From NCBI GenBank assembly GCA_011772755.1, contig WVYX01000348.1:1-52331 (forward strand): DNA of 52,331 nucleotides, in the 5' to 3' direction. Both the position numbers and the translations under genes were made by a program. Positions 39,902 through 48,850 of the stretch are shown piece by piece. Position 1 is the first letter of the stretch, and the number at the start of each line of letters is the position of its first letter. The notes below the pieces were generated by a model that did not search any database, was not told the origin of the DNA, and saw nothing but the letters and a program-made list of their open reading frames with translations. The DNA comes from Gemmatimonadales bacterium (lineage in GTDB: Bacteria > Gemmatimonadota > Gemmatimonadetes > Gemmatimonadales > GWC2-71-9).

Positions 39902-40144
39902 TCAACCCCTGAGATGGCGGCCGGGAAGCACACTCCTACAGGGACCGGCACGACGTCGCAGGACCTCGTCGTGCTCACGTTGCAGGTCAATCGCCAGCCC
40001 AGACCTGGACACGTGCCAGGTGACGCGGCGGATGCCGTCGTCGAACGAGATGCCAGCCGGGTACTCGTCGGTCGTCTCGAGTGAATCGGGCAGATCGGAC
40101 CTCAGCCCGTGCTAGCCGTTCCTCAGTTCGTCCTGGAAACTCAT
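39902..40144 (-). pseudogene. Possible small gene interrupted by an in-frame TAG
   Basis: The frame opens ATG at 40144, overlapping the stop of the membrane gene by four bases (ATGA). It encodes ten residues (MSFQDELRNG), then TAG at 40112-40114, then 70 open codons reading DEYPAGISFDDGIRRVTWHV and on to a TGA at 39902. The part after the TAG has third positions mainly G/C, like true genes here. It may be a decaying gene, or read-through; no family was recognised. Confidence 0.35.
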
Positions 40145-41031
40145 GCCGCTGCCGCCTTCGCAGGGCGTTGACCGGCAGCCCGGATGTTCAGCAGCCTGCC
40201 GAGCCCGTCGAACCAGAACGGCGCTCCGAGCGAGACAGCCAGCGCGGTCAGCGCCCAGCCGACGAGGGCCAGCAGAAACAGTCCGACGTCCTCGAGCGAG
40301 AAACCCCACCGCGCGGGCCAGCCGATCGGCAGCGCCAACTCATCGAGTTCCTGGTGCAGCTCGCGGATCGTCGCTTCGGCGGATTGGTCACCTGCCGCGA
40401 CGAACTCGTCGGCATTCTGAACCACGGCGGCGCGTAAGGTGGGCTCCTGCCACAGCCCCTTCGCCACCTCGATGGAGTCTACGTTGAATATCACAGCGAG
40501 GCCGAAGGCGATGCCCAGCATCCACCTTCGGGCGGTGCGCTTGTACCAGCCGGACACCCTGTCCATCGCGTCGTCGAACCACCCCTCGATGTTCTCGCGG
40601 ACCTTCTCAATATCACCCTGAGCGCTGTCAATCAGCGCGCCGAGGGCCTCCTTCAACCGGCCGCTGGGCAGCTTGTCTACGGTGTCCTTTGCCTCGGTGA
40701 GCGCACCCCTGCCGGAGGCGGGATCCTTCAGGACATCCAATAGCGCGAGCGCAAACGACCGAGCAGGTATGTAGGATGGGTCTTTTCCCTTCTTCGAGAG
40801 GTTTCTCACCAAGGCGTGCTGGTAGACGTCGTCGGCCAAGTTCCTCACGGCACCGTTGGCGTCCTTGAGGTTTTCGTCCTCCAGCAGGTTGTCGATGCCC
40901 TCCCGGAGCGTAGCTGACCGCAAGCTCAGCAGCACCGCCACCAACTCCTGCATGGCGCTGCAGATTAGGCTCAAGACCAGATAAACGAACGCGAGTCCAA
41001 TCACCACGTCGAGCGTGACCATTCCGAACAT
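40141..41031 (-). CDS. Membrane protein of unknown function
   Basis: The ATG at 41031 is preferred over one at 41070: GGAGGGAACC lies before it, and the protein then begins MFGMVTLDVVIGLAFVYLVLSLIC, with a TM helix at residues 5-25. A second TM helix is near residues 165-185 (RRWMLGIAFGLAVIFNV) and a third near 250 (VGLFLLALVGWALTALAVSLG). In between are charged helices (KLPSGRLKEALGALIDSAQG). The pattern of three TM helices with a long loop matches a family I know only as uncharacterised. Located downstream of the TIR-like gene on the same strand (136 bases), so it may be in the same unit. Function unknown. Confidence 0.82.
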   Translation of the reverse strand: MFGMVTLDVVIGLAFVYLVLSLICSAMQELVAVLLSLRSATLREGIDNLLEDENLKDANGAVRNLADDVYQHALVRNLSKKGKDPSYIPARSFALALLDVLKDPASGRGALTEAKDTVDKLPSGRLKEALGALIDSAQGDIEKVRENIEGWFDDAMDRVSGWYKRTARRWMLGIAFGLAVIFNVDSIEVAKGLWQEPTLRAAVVQNADEFVAAGDQSAEATIRELHQELDELALPIGWPARWGFSLEDVGLFLLALVGWALTALAVSLGAPFWFDGLGRLLNIRAAGQRPAKAAAA

Positions 41032-41167
41032 GGTTCCCTCCGTTTCTTCCCATCGTGGAGCTTCGGCCATGCGGGGTTCCGTGGTTGGCCGGGCTGATGC
41101 GAGTGGCTAGCAGGGTGTTGAGAGAGGAGACAATACAGGCGTGGCCGCAATCGGGGCCAGCCCATCC

Positions 41168-41875
41168 TCAAAGCAGGCCGTGCCTGCTCAAGAAGTGGGG
41201 AATGCCAAAGTACAATTGCCTGCAGAGGTCTTCGTAGCTCTTGTACTGCACGCGTAGCAGACCGGCGAGATCGGAGGGCATCGTCCCGGTGTCCACCACC
41301 CGATTCCGACGACCGATGTACTCACAGAAGATCATTGGCCGATCCAACACGCATGCCATTCCGGCCTCGATGTACACGTTCGGACGATCGAGGGTACCGA
41401 GGTTGTCGAAGATGCACATGTCCGACTGGCCGATGTTCCGGATGATGTCGCTAAGCAGATTGTCGCCGTTGAGGTCGAAACCGGCCCAGGTCAGGCGGAT
41501 CCGGTACGGATCGAGCAAGTGCCGCAGGTTGAACCGAAAGCTCCTCTCGAAATCCGGGCGAAAACGGTGACCCACAAAGCACTCGATCTGCGTGTTCCCC
41601 CCGGCCCTAGGGGGGACAAACTGAATGAACCAGAACTCCCGAAGATCCGGCTCGCGTAGGGATATCAGCTTGACGGCACCGCTCACCCCCGGAAACGTCA
41701 CTCTCCGACCTTGGGCCGCGAACAGCAAGTCCCGTAGACGGCGGAGCGCCGGTCCGTCCAGGCTCGCCTTCGCATCCAAGTACTCATCCTGTGACAGTCC
41801 ACCGTAGATGAACTGCGCTTCGAGAAAGTCGAGCATGAAGTCTCGGACGAACCCCAGCTTGCTGCGTGACGGCAT
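41168..41875 (-). CDS. TIR-like / nucleoside-deoxyribosyltransferase-like domain protein
   Basis: ATG eight bases after the stop of the SWIB gene; no good ribosome site, so translation is probably coupled. The 235-residue protein has a head (residues 1-95) of unknown type and a C-terminal Rossmannoid domain: CFVGHRFRPDFERSFRFNLR (99-118), LLSDIIRNIGQSDMCIFDN (140-158) and PNVYIEAGMA (165-174). This order matches bacterial TIR-like/NDT-like domains in which the Glu of [NV]xxxEAG (here E170) is catalytic for cleaving NAD or nucleosides. The call rests on motifs only. No antiphage genes of known type are near. Genes with this domain may act in defence or signalling. Confidence 0.75.
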   Translation of the reverse strand: MPSRSKLGFVRDFMLDFLEAQFIYGGLSQDEYLDAKASLDGPALRRLRDLLFAAQGRRVTFPGVSGAVKLISLREPDLREFWFIQFVPPRAGGNTQIECFVGHRFRPDFERSFRFNLRHLLDPYRIRLTWAGFDLNGDNLLSDIIRNIGQSDMCIFDNLGTLDRPNVYIEAGMACVLDRPMIFCEYIGRRNRVVDTGTMPSDLAGLLRVQYKSYEDLCRQLYFGIPHFLSRHGLL

Positions 41876-41883
41876 ACGCCGCG

Positions 41884-42279
41884 CTACCCTAGGGGGCCGT
41901 ACGTTCGCCCAAAGATGACCACCGCCGACGGCGCCTTCCGAAGATGCTGCCCTAGGTACTTCTCCATCTCGAACATGCTCACCTTGGACTTGCCATCGAA
42001 GACCGGCTTGAGCTTCTCATCCGCATTGATCATCCGCCGGTTGCGCTTGTCCTGAAGCTCATGACGCTTGATGTAGTCCCAGATCTTCTTGGTGAGCAAC
42101 CTGCGCGGCACGGGTTCACTTCCCACCACCGCCGCCAACTGGGCATCCGGACTTACCGGCTTCATGAACTGTGGATTCGGCTTCCGCTTCTTCTTCGTGG
42201 TGGTCCTCTTCTTTTCGGCGGCTGTCGTCTTCTTGGCTGCCGGCTTTTTCTTCACCAGCTTGTCCTTATTAGCTGCCAC
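41884..42279 (-). CDS. SWIB domain protein with Lys-rich N-terminus
   Basis: GTG start after GGGGGAG. Residues 6-33 are a Lys/Ala-rich, histone H1-like tail. Residues about 40-114 form a SWIB/MDM2-type domain: KPVSPDAQLAAVVGSEPVPRRLLTKKIWDYIKRHELQD, then NADEKLKPVFDGKSKVSMFEMEKYLGQHL. Bacterial SWIB proteins are known from chlamydiae and several soil phyla, where they are thought to act on DNA or chromatin. The stop is eight bases before the TIR-like gene. The pair should be one transcript. Convergence of a nucleoid-type protein with a possible NAD/nucleoside hydrolase is unusual. Confidence 0.9.
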   Translation of the reverse strand: MAANKDKLVKKKPAAKKTTAAEKKRTTTKKKRKPNPQFMKPVSPDAQLAAVVGSEPVPRRLLTKKIWDYIKRHELQDKRNRRMINADEKLKPVFDGKSKVSMFEMEKYLGQHLRKAPSAVVIFGRTYGPLG

Positions 42280-42469: not shown

Positions 42470-43954
42470 CTAGATGACGTACTCCCCGGGGTTGATCCCG
42501 TACTTGCCGGGATCAGCAACCTTGATGATTGACCGGCGGAAGTTCCCGCTCCCGTCCGTCTGGGACAGGTCCGCCAGCTCTCCGGAGTCGAACCTGGAGC
42601 CGTCCGCGCCGCATACGATCCGCACAATCGGCCGGTGCAGCTGCGTGGGATCGGGATTCGCGGAGTGCACCACTGCCAGTTCGTAGGTGTCCAGAATGAC
42701 GCAGGTCCCCACCGGGTATATGCCGAGTAGATTGATGAGGGCTTTGACGAGGGCGGTGTCGTAGGCGCGACCGCCCGCATCCCACATCTCCCGGAGGATC
42801 TGGTCGGGCTGGATTGGCAAGGTTCGGTAGGAGCGCCGCTGCGTTGCCGCGTCGTACGTGTCAGCAGCCGACACGATCTTCGAGTAGAGCGACAGCTCTT
42901 GCACACGACGCATCTTCGGGTACCCCTTGAGGTCCACCCGCATGTGGTGCTCGTGCGCGACAATCATCGCGCGGTACGGAATCTCGGCGAACCCGCGGAG
43001 GTCAAACAGGGTGAGCACGCCCCACCAGGAATGGGTCTGCATGATGCGCCACTCGTCCGGCTCGAACCGACCGGGCTTGTTCAGGATCTCGGAGGGGATT
43101 CGACTCTTCCCCACGTCGTGGAGCAGCGCCGCGAGGCCGAGGTCGTAGAGCTGCTGTCTGGTGAGGCCCAGGCGCTTGCCGATCGAAACACTCAGGATGC
43201 AGACGTTCACCGAGTGCGTAAACGTGTACTCATCATAATCGCGAATGGTGGTGAGACCGACCAGCGACACTTCGTTCTTCAGCACCTGGTCGACAATGCT
43301 CTGGACCACGCGCTTCACTTTCTTGGCGCTCGCGGCCTTCCCGAGCCGAACGCTCTCGATCATCTCCTTGGTGACGGCGACTGACCGCCCGTAGGTCCGC
43401 TTGGCAAGATCCTTGGCTCGCTCCGCATCGCCGAGCGCTTCGTCGTACCCCAGCGGCGGCTCGATCGCGATGTTGGTGATATTGGCCGCCACCATCTTGT
43501 GCCGCAGCGTGAACAGCTTGTCCTCGCTCGGACCGCGGGGAGCGAAGGCAAGGATCAGCGAGAGAAACACCTGCCATTCCCTGCGCTCGACACCGTCGAA
43601 CACGCGCACCGCACCGATCCCGCACTCGCGCAGCGTGGTGAGGACGTGACTGAACGTGGCATAGTTGTCCAGGCTGAGTCGGAGACGCACCTCATTGACG
43701 TAGATGAATTCGCCAGCGATCCGGACCTCCAGCTCCGCATCGAGCTCGTGCAGCGCCTTGGCAGCCTCCCCGAGACCGTCCAGGGCACGCTGCACCTGAG
43801 AGTTCTCCACCGGATAAAGGTTGAGGCTGCGCAGCGTCGTGTGGAGCGCCACCAGGTACTCACGCCCTCTCTGCCGGACGATCCCGGCCGCTTCCGCTTC
43901 CGCCTCTGTAGTCACTCCCTCAACTGCAAGCTGCGACGGTCTCGGTTCTGTCAT
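42470..43954 (-). CDS. HD-GYP phosphodiesterase with a novel N-terminal sensor domain
   Basis: ATG at 43954 follows CAGGAGA; the upstream extension to 44266 lies within the preceding gene and is not coding. Residues 32-138 form an N-terminal domain that resembles the same part of the neighbouring HEAT protein (see findings). The HD-GYP domain follows: H279-D280 in LLHDVGK, and HHMRVDLKGYP at 336-346. The typical R-x-D-G-x-G-Y-P reads MRVDLKGYP, with Leu in place of Gly. HD-GYP enzymes degrade cyclic di-GMP. The last 80 residues are an extra region. It starts one base after the HEAT gene stop (TGA at 43956-43958), so the two are coupled. Confidence 0.9.
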   Translation of the reverse strand: MTEPRPSQLAVEGVTTEAEAEAAGIVRQRGREYLVALHTTLRSLNLYPVENSQVQRALDGLGEAAKALHELDAELEVRIAGEFIYVNEVRLRLSLDNYATFSHVLTTLRECGIGAVRVFDGVERREWQVFLSLILAFAPRGPSEDKLFTLRHKMVAANITNIAIEPPLGYDEALGDAERAKDLAKRTYGRSVAVTKEMIESVRLGKAASAKKVKRVVQSIVDQVLKNEVSLVGLTTIRDYDEYTFTHSVNVCILSVSIGKRLGLTRQQLYDLGLAALLHDVGKSRIPSEILNKPGRFEPDEWRIMQTHSWWGVLTLFDLRGFAEIPYRAMIVAHEHHMRVDLKGYPKMRRVQELSLYSKIVSAADTYDAATQRRSYRTLPIQPDQILREMWDAGGRAYDTALVKALINLLGIYPVGTCVILDTYELAVVHSANPDPTQLHRPIVRIVCGADGSRFDSGELADLSQTDGSGNFRRSIIKVADPGKYGINPGEYVI

Positions 43955-43955
43955 A

Positions 43956-45668
43956 TCACGTGATCTCCTGGAGCGCTCGCCGAACGGCGTTCCGCACGAC
44001 AGGATCCTTCTCGCCCCCAGCGGCGTCGAGCACGGCCCGGGCCTCCGGGGTGCCAATCTTGCCCAGCGCCATCGCGGCACATGCCCGAGTCTCGGGGTCT
44101 GCCTTGCGCCTGAATAGTCCCCCCCCGCGCAGTATCCGCCGAAGCCTCCCGATCCCCGACTCGCCAGCCAGCAGCCCGTACGCCTCGAAAAAGGACTGCT
44201 TCTCGGCAAGCGCAGCGGCGCGGAGGGCCTTGCCCGCGATCGCGGCCTCGATCTTGGCGAACGCACCCGGGTGTCCGCGCTCCGCCAACCGCCGGACCGC
44301 CGTGCTGCGTACCTCGGCCTCGGCGTCTCCCACGGCCCGCTCCAGCAGATTCATCGCGCCGGGCGAGCCGATGGCGCCAAGCGCCTCCACCACCGCGTGC
44401 CGTATCCTGGGGCTGGGGTGATCCAGCAAGCCGTCCAGCGCCGGCACGAACAGGGGCAGCTCGAGCTGAGAGACCAGGTCCAGCGTCTGGAGCAGCAGCA
44501 TCTCGTCCTGGGTCTCGAGCAGGCTGAGCACGTGGTCGGGATGCGCCCGGCCGAGCCGCTGTATGGCTGGTCGAAGCAGCTCCCGTACTTTCTCACTCTT
44601 GAGCCTGGGAAGCCGCGACAGAACCGTCGTGAGCACTTCGGGACGCAGCTCGGAGAACAGCTCGCCCACATCGTCCGCAGTCGGGTGCACCACCGCCTCA
44701 TCCAGCGACTGCAACAGCTGGGCGATGGCCTCGGGCTCAGACAGCGGCGCCGGAAGGTCCGATATCGCTTCACGGTGCTCAGGCAGCAGCTCCTCCGCCT
44801 GCTGGAGCACCACCTTCAGCTCCCGCAAGATGGTCGCGACAGAGCGAAAATCGCCATCGGCGAGCACATGGGGAAGCAGATTCTCGATGACCGAGATCAG
44901 CTTCTCCCGCGCCGCTTCGTACGGTTCCAGCTCCAGGATATCGAACAACATCGCGAGCGTCCTGGCCCTCAGGCTCTGGTCGTATTCCCGCTCGATCTCG
45001 CCCTTGAGGTAGTTGATCTCGCTCTCGTCGAGGAAATACAGCGTGGAATCGAAGTCCTCCACCTTCATGATCTCGGGCGGCGCCTCGGCGACAGCGGCCT
45101 GCGTCGTTTCCTCGGCCACCTTCTGCCGGACCTCTACCGGCGACGGACTGGCCGGGGGTTCCCCCCAGGACGGCTGTGGGGCGGCCGCCGACTCAAATGA
45201 GGCAACCTCCTCCTCGCCGAGCTCCGTGTAGGTGTAGCGGATCAGCTGAAATTGGCGCTGCCACAGCAGGGTGAGCAGGTCGTCCGGGGCGTCCCGCGGC
45301 AAGTTGCGAGCCTGTTGCAACACGTCTAAGAACTGAACGATCTCGTCGTCCTCCACCCCCTCCACCAGCGTGAGGGATCGCAGGCCGTCCTTGAACATGA
45401 TCCACGCGAGGCTTTCGGACTTGTCCGGCTGGGACAGCACCACGTTCGCGCCCCATGCCAAGTCCGTCTCGTTCACCTGGAGCTCCAGCTCCCCGCACTC
45501 CTCCCACACAGGCTCGAAGGCGGTTCGCAGGTTCAAGAGCGCCTTCTGGTACACCGGGTTGTTGGAGGGATAGAGCTGCAACGCCCGCAGCCCCTTGTCG
45601 AGCATCAGCATGAGACGCTCGACGGCCGCTGTGTCCACGCCCTGGTCCGGCGGGGTCGGCTCAGTCAT
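43956..45668 (-). CDS. HEAT-repeat protein, partner of the HD-GYP protein
   Basis: 570 residues; there is no strong ribosome site before the ATG. Residues 18-121 form an N-terminal domain shared with the HD-GYP protein. The middle (about 170-350) is acidic and helical. Residues about 330-565 hold PBS/HEAT-type repeats (for example LLDHPSPRIRHAVVEALGAIGSPGAMNLLERAVGDAEAEVRSTAVRRLAERGHP). HEAT arrays bind proteins, so it may be a scaffold or regulator of the HD-GYP phosphodiesterase. No signal or TM. The stop lies one base before the next start. Confidence 0.9.
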   Translation of the reverse strand: MTEPTPPDQGVDTAAVERLMLMLDKGLRALQLYPSNNPVYQKALLNLRTAFEPVWEECGELELQVNETDLAWGANVVLSQPDKSESLAWIMFKDGLRSLTLVEGVEDDEIVQFLDVLQQARNLPRDAPDDLLTLLWQRQFQLIRYTYTELGEEEVASFESAAAPQPSWGEPPASPSPVEVRQKVAEETTQAAVAEAPPEIMKVEDFDSTLYFLDESEINYLKGEIEREYDQSLRARTLAMLFDILELEPYEAAREKLISVIENLLPHVLADGDFRSVATILRELKVVLQQAEELLPEHREAISDLPAPLSEPEAIAQLLQSLDEAVVHPTADDVGELFSELRPEVLTTVLSRLPRLKSEKVRELLRPAIQRLGRAHPDHVLSLLETQDEMLLLQTLDLVSQLELPLFVPALDGLLDHPSPRIRHAVVEALGAIGSPGAMNLLERAVGDAEAEVRSTAVRRLAERGHPGAFAKIEAAIAGKALRAAALAEKQSFFEAYGLLAGESGIGRLRRILRGGGLFRRKADPETRACAAMALGKIGTPEARAVLDAAGGEKDPVVRNAVRRALQEIT

Positions 45669-47211: not shown

Positions 47212-48393
47212 TCACAGCAAAACAGCCAGCAACACAACTCCAATCACAATCACAAGCACCGCGATACCAATAACGATTAGCCAACCATACCGACGCCAGC
47301 ATGATGGACGCTCTGGAAGGGCGCCCTGTGCGATCTCTGACCCTGATATTCCAGCCACTGCTCTGGACTTGGGAGGCTGGCGGAGATCTTTCAGCAGGTC
47401 ATGCAGCTGGTCCTCATTCAATGGGTTTTTTGCCGCTGCCTTTCCCGCATCGTACGCCGCCTGGATCTTCGCCGGCTCAAACTCGAGCCCGCCGCAGTAC
47501 TCCTTATCCGGCACAACGCCATAGATCTTCACGTCGCGGTAGTCGGGGTATCTATAGTGGAAGGCTCCCAGCAACTCCTGGACCTTCGACGCTGCATCTC
47601 CTGATTGCAGCTCGCTTTCGAGTTGACGGTATGCACGCACCGACCGGTTCACGAGGATCGCGTGCAGCACATCCTCACAGTAGATCTCGTTCACCATTAT
47701 CTCGATGGCCCTCTCCAGTATCGCCCGGCCGGACTTCCATGGCGGCTCTGCCTGCTTAATGCCAAACGGAGAGGCGAACAGCACGTACATCTCGTCAGGT
47801 GAATCCTCACCATCTGCCGATATCCTGCTCAGCGCCTTGAACGCGGCCCTGAGCGGTGTCACGTTGCGGATTCCCCCATCCATGGCATACTGCCCATCGA
47901 CGGCCACCGGCGGAAACAGCAGCGGCATGGACGAGCTCGCCAGCGTCCACTCCCGGATCGAATCGTTGTACTGGTCGATCTCGTAGTAGAAGGTCGACTC
48001 AAGGCCGACAGCCCCAATCCGCAACTCCCGTCCAGACTGCTTCAATCGGTCAAGGGAGACGTTTTGGGGGTCCTGGATCATCTCCCACAAGGGATCTGGG
48101 GAATACCAACTGTCCTTGCAGAGCAGCCACAGGAGCTTGGCAAGGAAGCGCTCGCGGTAAATCGCCTTGTAGTTCTCGATGCCGAGCCAGATGTCCCGCA
48201 GAGCGGCAAATTGTCGCTTCAGCTCATTTGAACCTCTGCCTTGCGCGAGCATCAGAGCGTTCAAGGAACCTGTAGAGATTCCGGCGATCACCTTGAAGTC
48301 GATGTCCTTGTCACAGATGAGATGCTCCAGAGCACCGACTTCGAATGCCCCCTTCGCACCACCACCACTCATGACCACTGCGACGTTTGGCAT
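47212..48393 (-). CDS. Patatin-like phospholipase with C-terminal membrane anchor
   Basis: The ATG at 48393, behind GGGAGGCGG, is preferred to one at 48456. The patatin features are GGGAKG at 10-15 (oxyanion loop), GISTG at 38-42 with nucleophile Ser40, and D172-G-G in MDGGIRN. The dyad is therefore Ser40/Asp172. The C-terminus has one TM helix at about 368-391 (WLIVIGIAVLVIVIGVVLLAVLL). There is no N-terminal signal, so the catalytic domain faces the cytoplasm, tail-anchored. It should hydrolyse membrane lipids. Patatins also serve as CBASS effectors, but no cyclase gene is near. Confidence 0.92.
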   Translation of the reverse strand: MPNVAVVMSGGGAKGAFEVGALEHLICDKDIDFKVIAGISTGSLNALMLAQGRGSNELKRQFAALRDIWLGIENYKAIYRERFLAKLLWLLCKDSWYSPDPLWEMIQDPQNVSLDRLKQSGRELRIGAVGLESTFYYEIDQYNDSIREWTLASSSMPLLFPPVAVDGQYAMDGGIRNVTPLRAAFKALSRISADGEDSPDEMYVLFASPFGIKQAEPPWKSGRAILERAIEIMVNEIYCEDVLHAILVNRSVRAYRQLESELQSGDAASKVQELLGAFHYRYPDYRDVKIYGVVPDKEYCGGLEFEPAKIQAAYDAGKAAAKNPLNEDQLHDLLKDLRQPPKSRAVAGISGSEIAQGALPERPSCWRRYGWLIVIGIAVLVIVIGVVLLAVLL

Positions 48394-48850
48394 GTCCGCC
48401 TCCCGGGTTGAGCGTGTCAAACGGGGATCAGGGGATGGGCATCCCCGGCATCCCACGCAGGTTGTCAGGTAGACCAGCGGTCACGTCGTCGGAGGACGCT
48501 GGGCGCGGACGTCGCGGCGGCGGGGCGTTGCTGGACGTAAGTCCGGCAAACAGTAACGAGCCCCCGGCGCCGCCGATAGGCCCGTTTTGGGGCATCAGGT
48601 GCCCTTCTTGGGACACTCGCAGCCGGGCCGTAGGATGTCCCCCCTTTATCGGACCATTCAGACTGGGACGGGTTCGGGTCTTCTCCGTCCAGTTGGGCGG
48701 ACTCGGCACCTCCCCCTGCGGCGTAATCCCCCCGGTCGCTTGCCGCCGGCAGCGCGCCGCGTCCCGTGACCCGGCATCACCTGCCAGGGTATCCCCCTAT
48801 GAGGGGACCCGAAAGCCAGTGCGTCCCCACACGCTTGATCGGAGGGGGCT
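48394..48850. other. Gene-free stretch, no gene seen
   Basis: 457 bases between the divergent patatin and lipoprotein genes. No frame with coding character, no strong hairpin and no promoter with good spacing. It should carry both promoters. Confidence 0.5.

Follow-up and report, generated by a model that had tools for sequence, protein, structure and literature searches.

Do two closely spaced genes, one for a SWIB-domain protein and one for an NDT/TIR-like protein, form a functional unit in a Gemmatimonadales bacterium? We addressed this question in a stretch of 52,331 nucleotides (the window; contig WVYX01000348.1), which belongs to a 4.24-Mb draft genome of 85% completeness. The reading that we favor, and consider reasonably probable, is that of an accessory, effector-type glycosidase gene that lies behind a SWIB paralogue, probably on one transcript, and has no dedicated functional link to it.

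A closely spaced gene pair on the minus strand

The SWIB gene (42279-41884, minus strand, GTG start, 131 amino acids) ends with a TAG codon at 41886-41884, and the NDT/TIR-like gene (41875-41168, minus strand, ATG start, 235 amino acids) begins with the ATG at 41875-41873. The intervening gap (41876..41883, minus strand), read from the sequence, measures 8 bases; the initial annotation had described two genes with an eight-base gap, and both minus-strand frames are indeed present where it placed them. With the other window genes as a reference, codon preference amounts to 0.38 and 0.44 bits/codon for the SWIB and NDT/TIR-like genes, respectively (GC3 is 0.77 and 0.80), and for both genes the codon score is clearly positive in minus-strand frame 1 only. 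By codon preference and GC3, both frames are protein-coding. Their spacing is the tightest clean gap of the same-strand gene run in which they lie, and the NDT/TIR-like gene is probably co-transcribed with the SWIB gene directly ahead of it. The 8-base spacing hints at a shared purpose, against the view that the two genes are neighbors and nothing else.

Fold and predicted chemistry of the NDT/TIR-like protein

The 235-residue protein (41168..41875, minus strand) consists of an orphan N-terminal domain (residues 1-95) and a C-terminal Rossmannoid domain (residues 95-221; 41213..41593, minus strand) that contains the PNVYIEAGMA motif with E170 noted in the initial annotation. When searched alone, the protein has its best Pfam match in PF10137 CAP12-PCTIR_TIR (residues 163-212, E=0.019), which lies below threshold (15.4 bits compared with a cut-off of 24.7). 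The same search returned no PF05014 match, and phmmer with the single protein gave no match in the PDB. We aligned weak genome matches that share the motif and used the alignment to recruit further relatives. Asn-Val, Glu, and Gly of PNVYIEAG are among the invariant residues in the ten-row alignment, and F100, N166, V167, E170, and G172 are invariant in the fifteen-row alignment. The relatives exceed the Pfam cut-off of PF05014 Nuc_deoxyrib_tr (to E=5.5e-8), and their profile matches Rcl (6.5e-5), DNPH1 (3.9e-4), NDRT (1.1e-3), and a CMP N-glycosidase (2.3e-3) in the PDB, with a marginal match to PycTIR (0.041).

The AlphaFold model of the 235-residue protein (mean pLDDT 78.6, pTM 0.70) returned TIR-STING as the top Foldseek match (E=1e-4), followed by DNPH1 (4.9e-4) and the CMP N-glycosidase BcmB (5.8e-4); NDT/DNPH1/MilB-type structures are matched at E about 5e-4 to 1e-3. 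For TIR-STING, DNPH1, and BcmB, the TM normalized by target length reaches up to 0.79. The TIR domain of TICAM-1 and NDT are also among the best folds, and a search of viral models recovered CMP hydrolase, CAP12-TIR, and NDT proteins. The relatives' profile and the predicted structure thus both assign the NDT/TIR fold to residues ~95-221, at Foldseek E-values that are modest (1e-4), and uphold the TIR/NDT-type domain that had been proposed from the sequence.

The profile alignment places E170 opposite the catalytic Glu in the YELG motif of Rcl/DNPH1. Conservation of this residue had been predicted, and it is invariant in all 15 sequences. The second active-site acid of Rcl/DNPH1 (Asp-69 in rat, D69; Asp-80 in human, D80) can be located as the residue that varies among mutant chains in the structures: the rat Rcl chains carry Asp in 2khz, Ala in 2klh, and Asn in 4fyh, and the human DNPH1 chains carry Ala in 8rpt and Asn in 8rps, titled D80A and D80N. 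This position aligns with Ile144 in an ungapped stretch, D143 being one residue off. Phe100 is found at the presumed position of the strand-1 Tyr, a mapping by motif position only. In NDT and DNPH1 this first-strand Tyr sits beside the catalytic Glu, and in NADase TIRs the position is occupied by Phe or Ala (PMC11204291); on this motif-based mapping, the 235-residue protein would have the Phe typical of NADase TIRs.

Ile144 at the second-acid site speaks against a classical deoxyribosyltransferase, as judged from the alignment, and for this reason the domain, if active, is more likely to be a TIR-like NAD(P)/ribonucleotide glycosidase. It would probably cut the N-glycosidic bond of NAD+ or of a nucleotide via Glu170. 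It could also be catalytically dead and merely bind nucleotides. That Rcl/DNPH1 and NDT are the best PDB profile matches would fit a metabolic nucleoside/nucleotide hydrolase of the DNPH1/NDT type, with a role in salvage or sanitation and not as an effector. The Ile at the second-acid site, the apparent Phe in place of the strand-1 Tyr (by motif), and a sporadic distribution with variable fusions speak against such a role, which we regard as improbable.

The likeness to known families is partial. With the PF05014 NDT-fold proteins carrying the 'FVxMPF...PNVYYExG' signature, the 235-residue protein has in common the order of strands and helices, the invariant Glu of PNVYxExG, and D157, but it carries inserts of two residues ahead of PNVY and of six to eight residues near 189-197, and Ser201 stands in place of the Phe of nearly all of these relatives. 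Its sub-threshold PF10137 match, which spans its Glu motif, recalls the TIR NADases (CAP12/PycTIR PF10137, TIR-STING, and the DUF4062 'Swarozyc' proteins (PMC13174449)), whereas it lacks a STING or DUF4062 sensor, has an orphan N-terminal domain instead, and has no known system partner. The NDT-like effector of Retron-Eco1 belongs to the same fold class and acts there as a stand-alone defense effector (PMC12405507), but no reverse transcriptase gene was recognized next to the NDT/TIR-like gene.

The N-terminal ~96 residues (41588..41875, minus strand) are predicted to form three helices followed by a β-hairpin, an arrangement that is winged-helix-like in order only (residues 1-95). For residues 1-95 we found no Pfam match at E<=10 and no relative among the fetched proteins. 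Modeled alone, the domain has a mean pLDDT of 72, and a fold search with it gave nothing significant (best E=0.05). We did not accept an HU-like fold, for which the matches have E=0.05 and TM 0.34. Two weak sequence matches to the N-terminal half were dismissed as chance: one is a β-lactamase-family protein (L042), and the other has no coherent domain (L004). By inference, the orphan domain probably senses or oligomerizes. Other family members carry other N-terminal parts, such as an Mrr nuclease (L038) and Zn-ribbon-like stretches (L039, L041), a variety that would fit one common output domain attached to exchangeable input domains. 'FVxMxF...PNVYYExG' NDT-like domains also occur on contigs from a viral collection (L056, L057, L059, L060, and L061), where the region ahead of the domain reads as a β-sandwich (LamG-like).

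A diverged SWIB paralogue and a pairing seen once

The SWIB/MDM2-domain protein (41884..42279, minus strand) matches the full PF02201 profile (positions 1-74; E=6.3e-26, 90.4 bits compared with a cut-off of 25). Its domain is preceded by the Lys-rich tail KLVKKKPAAKKTTAAEKKRTTTKKKRK, in line with the SWIB protein with a Lys tail that the initial annotation had recognized. Such proteins are common in the group: a SWIB gene is present in 25 of 41 relatives' genomes, a long Lys/Arg tail is usual in the relatives, and one genome of the same order (G037) holds three copies (L014, L032, and L033). The bacterial genome studied here has a second copy (C2:26539; 65% identity to the window copy), which is close to genes reading as ribosomal protein L19 and RNase HII. 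In the SWIB tree the genome's two own copies group together with modest support (88/88), and the branch of the window copy is five-fold longer than that of the other (0.46 compared with 0.09). The window copy also has a C-terminal extension of ~16 residues that is absent from relatives. On this comparison, the window SWIB protein is a diverged, fast-evolving paralogue of the nucleoid-type SWIB protein that is ordinary in the family. It shares the SWIB domain and small size with bacterial SWIB proteins that have H1-like tails, of which the chlamydial Wcw_0377 is an example (PMC6426960), and its tail is Lys-rich like those of the Gemmatimonadota relatives. Unlike the H1-like-tail proteins, it is a diverged second copy whose tail is shorter and whose C terminus is extended.

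The NDT/TIR-like gene is best seen as a rare accessory gene whose product is a predicted glycosidase. No full-length relative of the 235-residue protein was found in 288 genomes of the order, 102 of the family, and 395 of the phylum, which gave chance-level or domain-only matches, and single-sequence searches of genome, viral, plasmid, and phage collections returned nothing real. The NDT-like domain itself is sporadic (27 of 249 phylum genomes) and, together with its varied partners (such as the Mrr nuclease and Zn-ribbon-like parts), has the pattern of effector modules. Another, distant NDT-like domain is encoded in the same genome (G000:C325:12404-12718, E=3e-6).

The initial annotation had proposed a coupled SWIB-TIR/NDT system and had set beforehand, as the point that would count against it, a lack of adjacency in other genomes. 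We scanned all fetched loci, with flanks of about 1.5-5 kb, using SWIB and NDT-like models, and found no instance of both among the 27 other SWIB loci or the 44 other NDT-like loci; since the enzyme-like gene is known from one genome and its nearest relatives may be unsequenced, this non-conservation also reflects a lack of data. Six annotated plasmid SWIB neighborhoods contain no annotated TIR or NDT gene, and no paper in the literature searched links SWIB with TIR/NDT. The coupled system is thus not borne out in the surveyed loci. The pairing looks lineage-specific and not like a conserved system, and the two proteins would have no functional link.

In a functional operon, the diverged SWIB protein would serve the enzyme as a sensor, regulator, or inhibitor bound to DNA or the nucleoid, and the pair would deplete NAD+ or nucleotides in defense or under stress. 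The placement of both genes on one strand 8 bases apart would fit this, as would the long SWIB branch, as if function had changed, the C-terminal extension, and the TIR/NDT-like effectors known in defense (PMC13174449, PMC12405507). Yet the pair occurs in no other genome surveyed, the surrounding genes are not recognizable as defense genes, and PADLOC gave no match for the NDT-like protein or the downstream membrane protein and only weak, chance-type matches for SWIB, and we consider the operon unlikely. A dedicated two-gene unit, in which a diverged, nucleoid-binding SWIB protein monitors chromosomal or phage DNA and regulates a TIR/NDT-like NAD+/nucleotide glycosidase through the orphan N-terminal domain, appears very unlikely. 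Should the two genes form a unit after all, a chromatin-type protein would be linked to a TIR/NDT effector, a combination for which we know of no precedent. The present yield is smaller: a glycosidase-fold protein that is divergent and has an orphan N-terminal domain, and a broad, little-described family of 'FVxMPF...PNVYYExG' domains that have diverse N-terminal partners and occur in Gemmatimonadota and on viral contigs.

Neighboring genes

A gene for a predicted membrane protein of 309 amino acids (40141..41070, minus strand) follows on the same strand, 97 bp downstream of the NDT/TIR-like gene. The terminator scan found no terminator-like site between them, and it is possible that this is the third gene of the SWIB transcript; in the promoter and terminator scans, sites are no more numerous than in shuffles. 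The membrane protein has no Pfam family and is rare among relatives (2/60). Homologues are located on plasmids of Rhizobium, Agrobacterium, Hymenobacter, Caballeronia, Paracoccus, and others, often next to genes for patatin phospholipase, metallophosphoesterase, vanadium haloperoxidase, amidase, or S8 peptidase, and the protein may represent an undescribed membrane module. The frequent hydrolase neighbors of the plasmid homologues, together with the short distance, would fit an enzyme with a membrane partner, such that the NDT/TIR-like protein belongs with the membrane protein and not with SWIB. This is quite improbable in our estimate: the plasmid neighborhoods contain no NDT-like gene, and the 97-bp spacing exceeds that to SWIB.

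The accessory glycosidase gene that we favor lies in a neighborhood that seems to accumulate duplicated and accessory genes, because the SWIB and HD-GYP genes both have second copies. For the HD-GYP gene just upstream of SWIB, the second copy is 65% identical and located at another site of the genome, and in several relatives the HEAT/HD-GYP copies adjoin a gene reading as trpA. The HEAT-repeat and HD-GYP gene pair (42470-45668, minus strand) is conserved in the family. Farther upstream is a gene for a patatin-like phospholipase (47212-48456, minus strand; PF01734, E=1.3e-27), with a β-lactamase-family (PF00144) gene 25 bases downstream of it.
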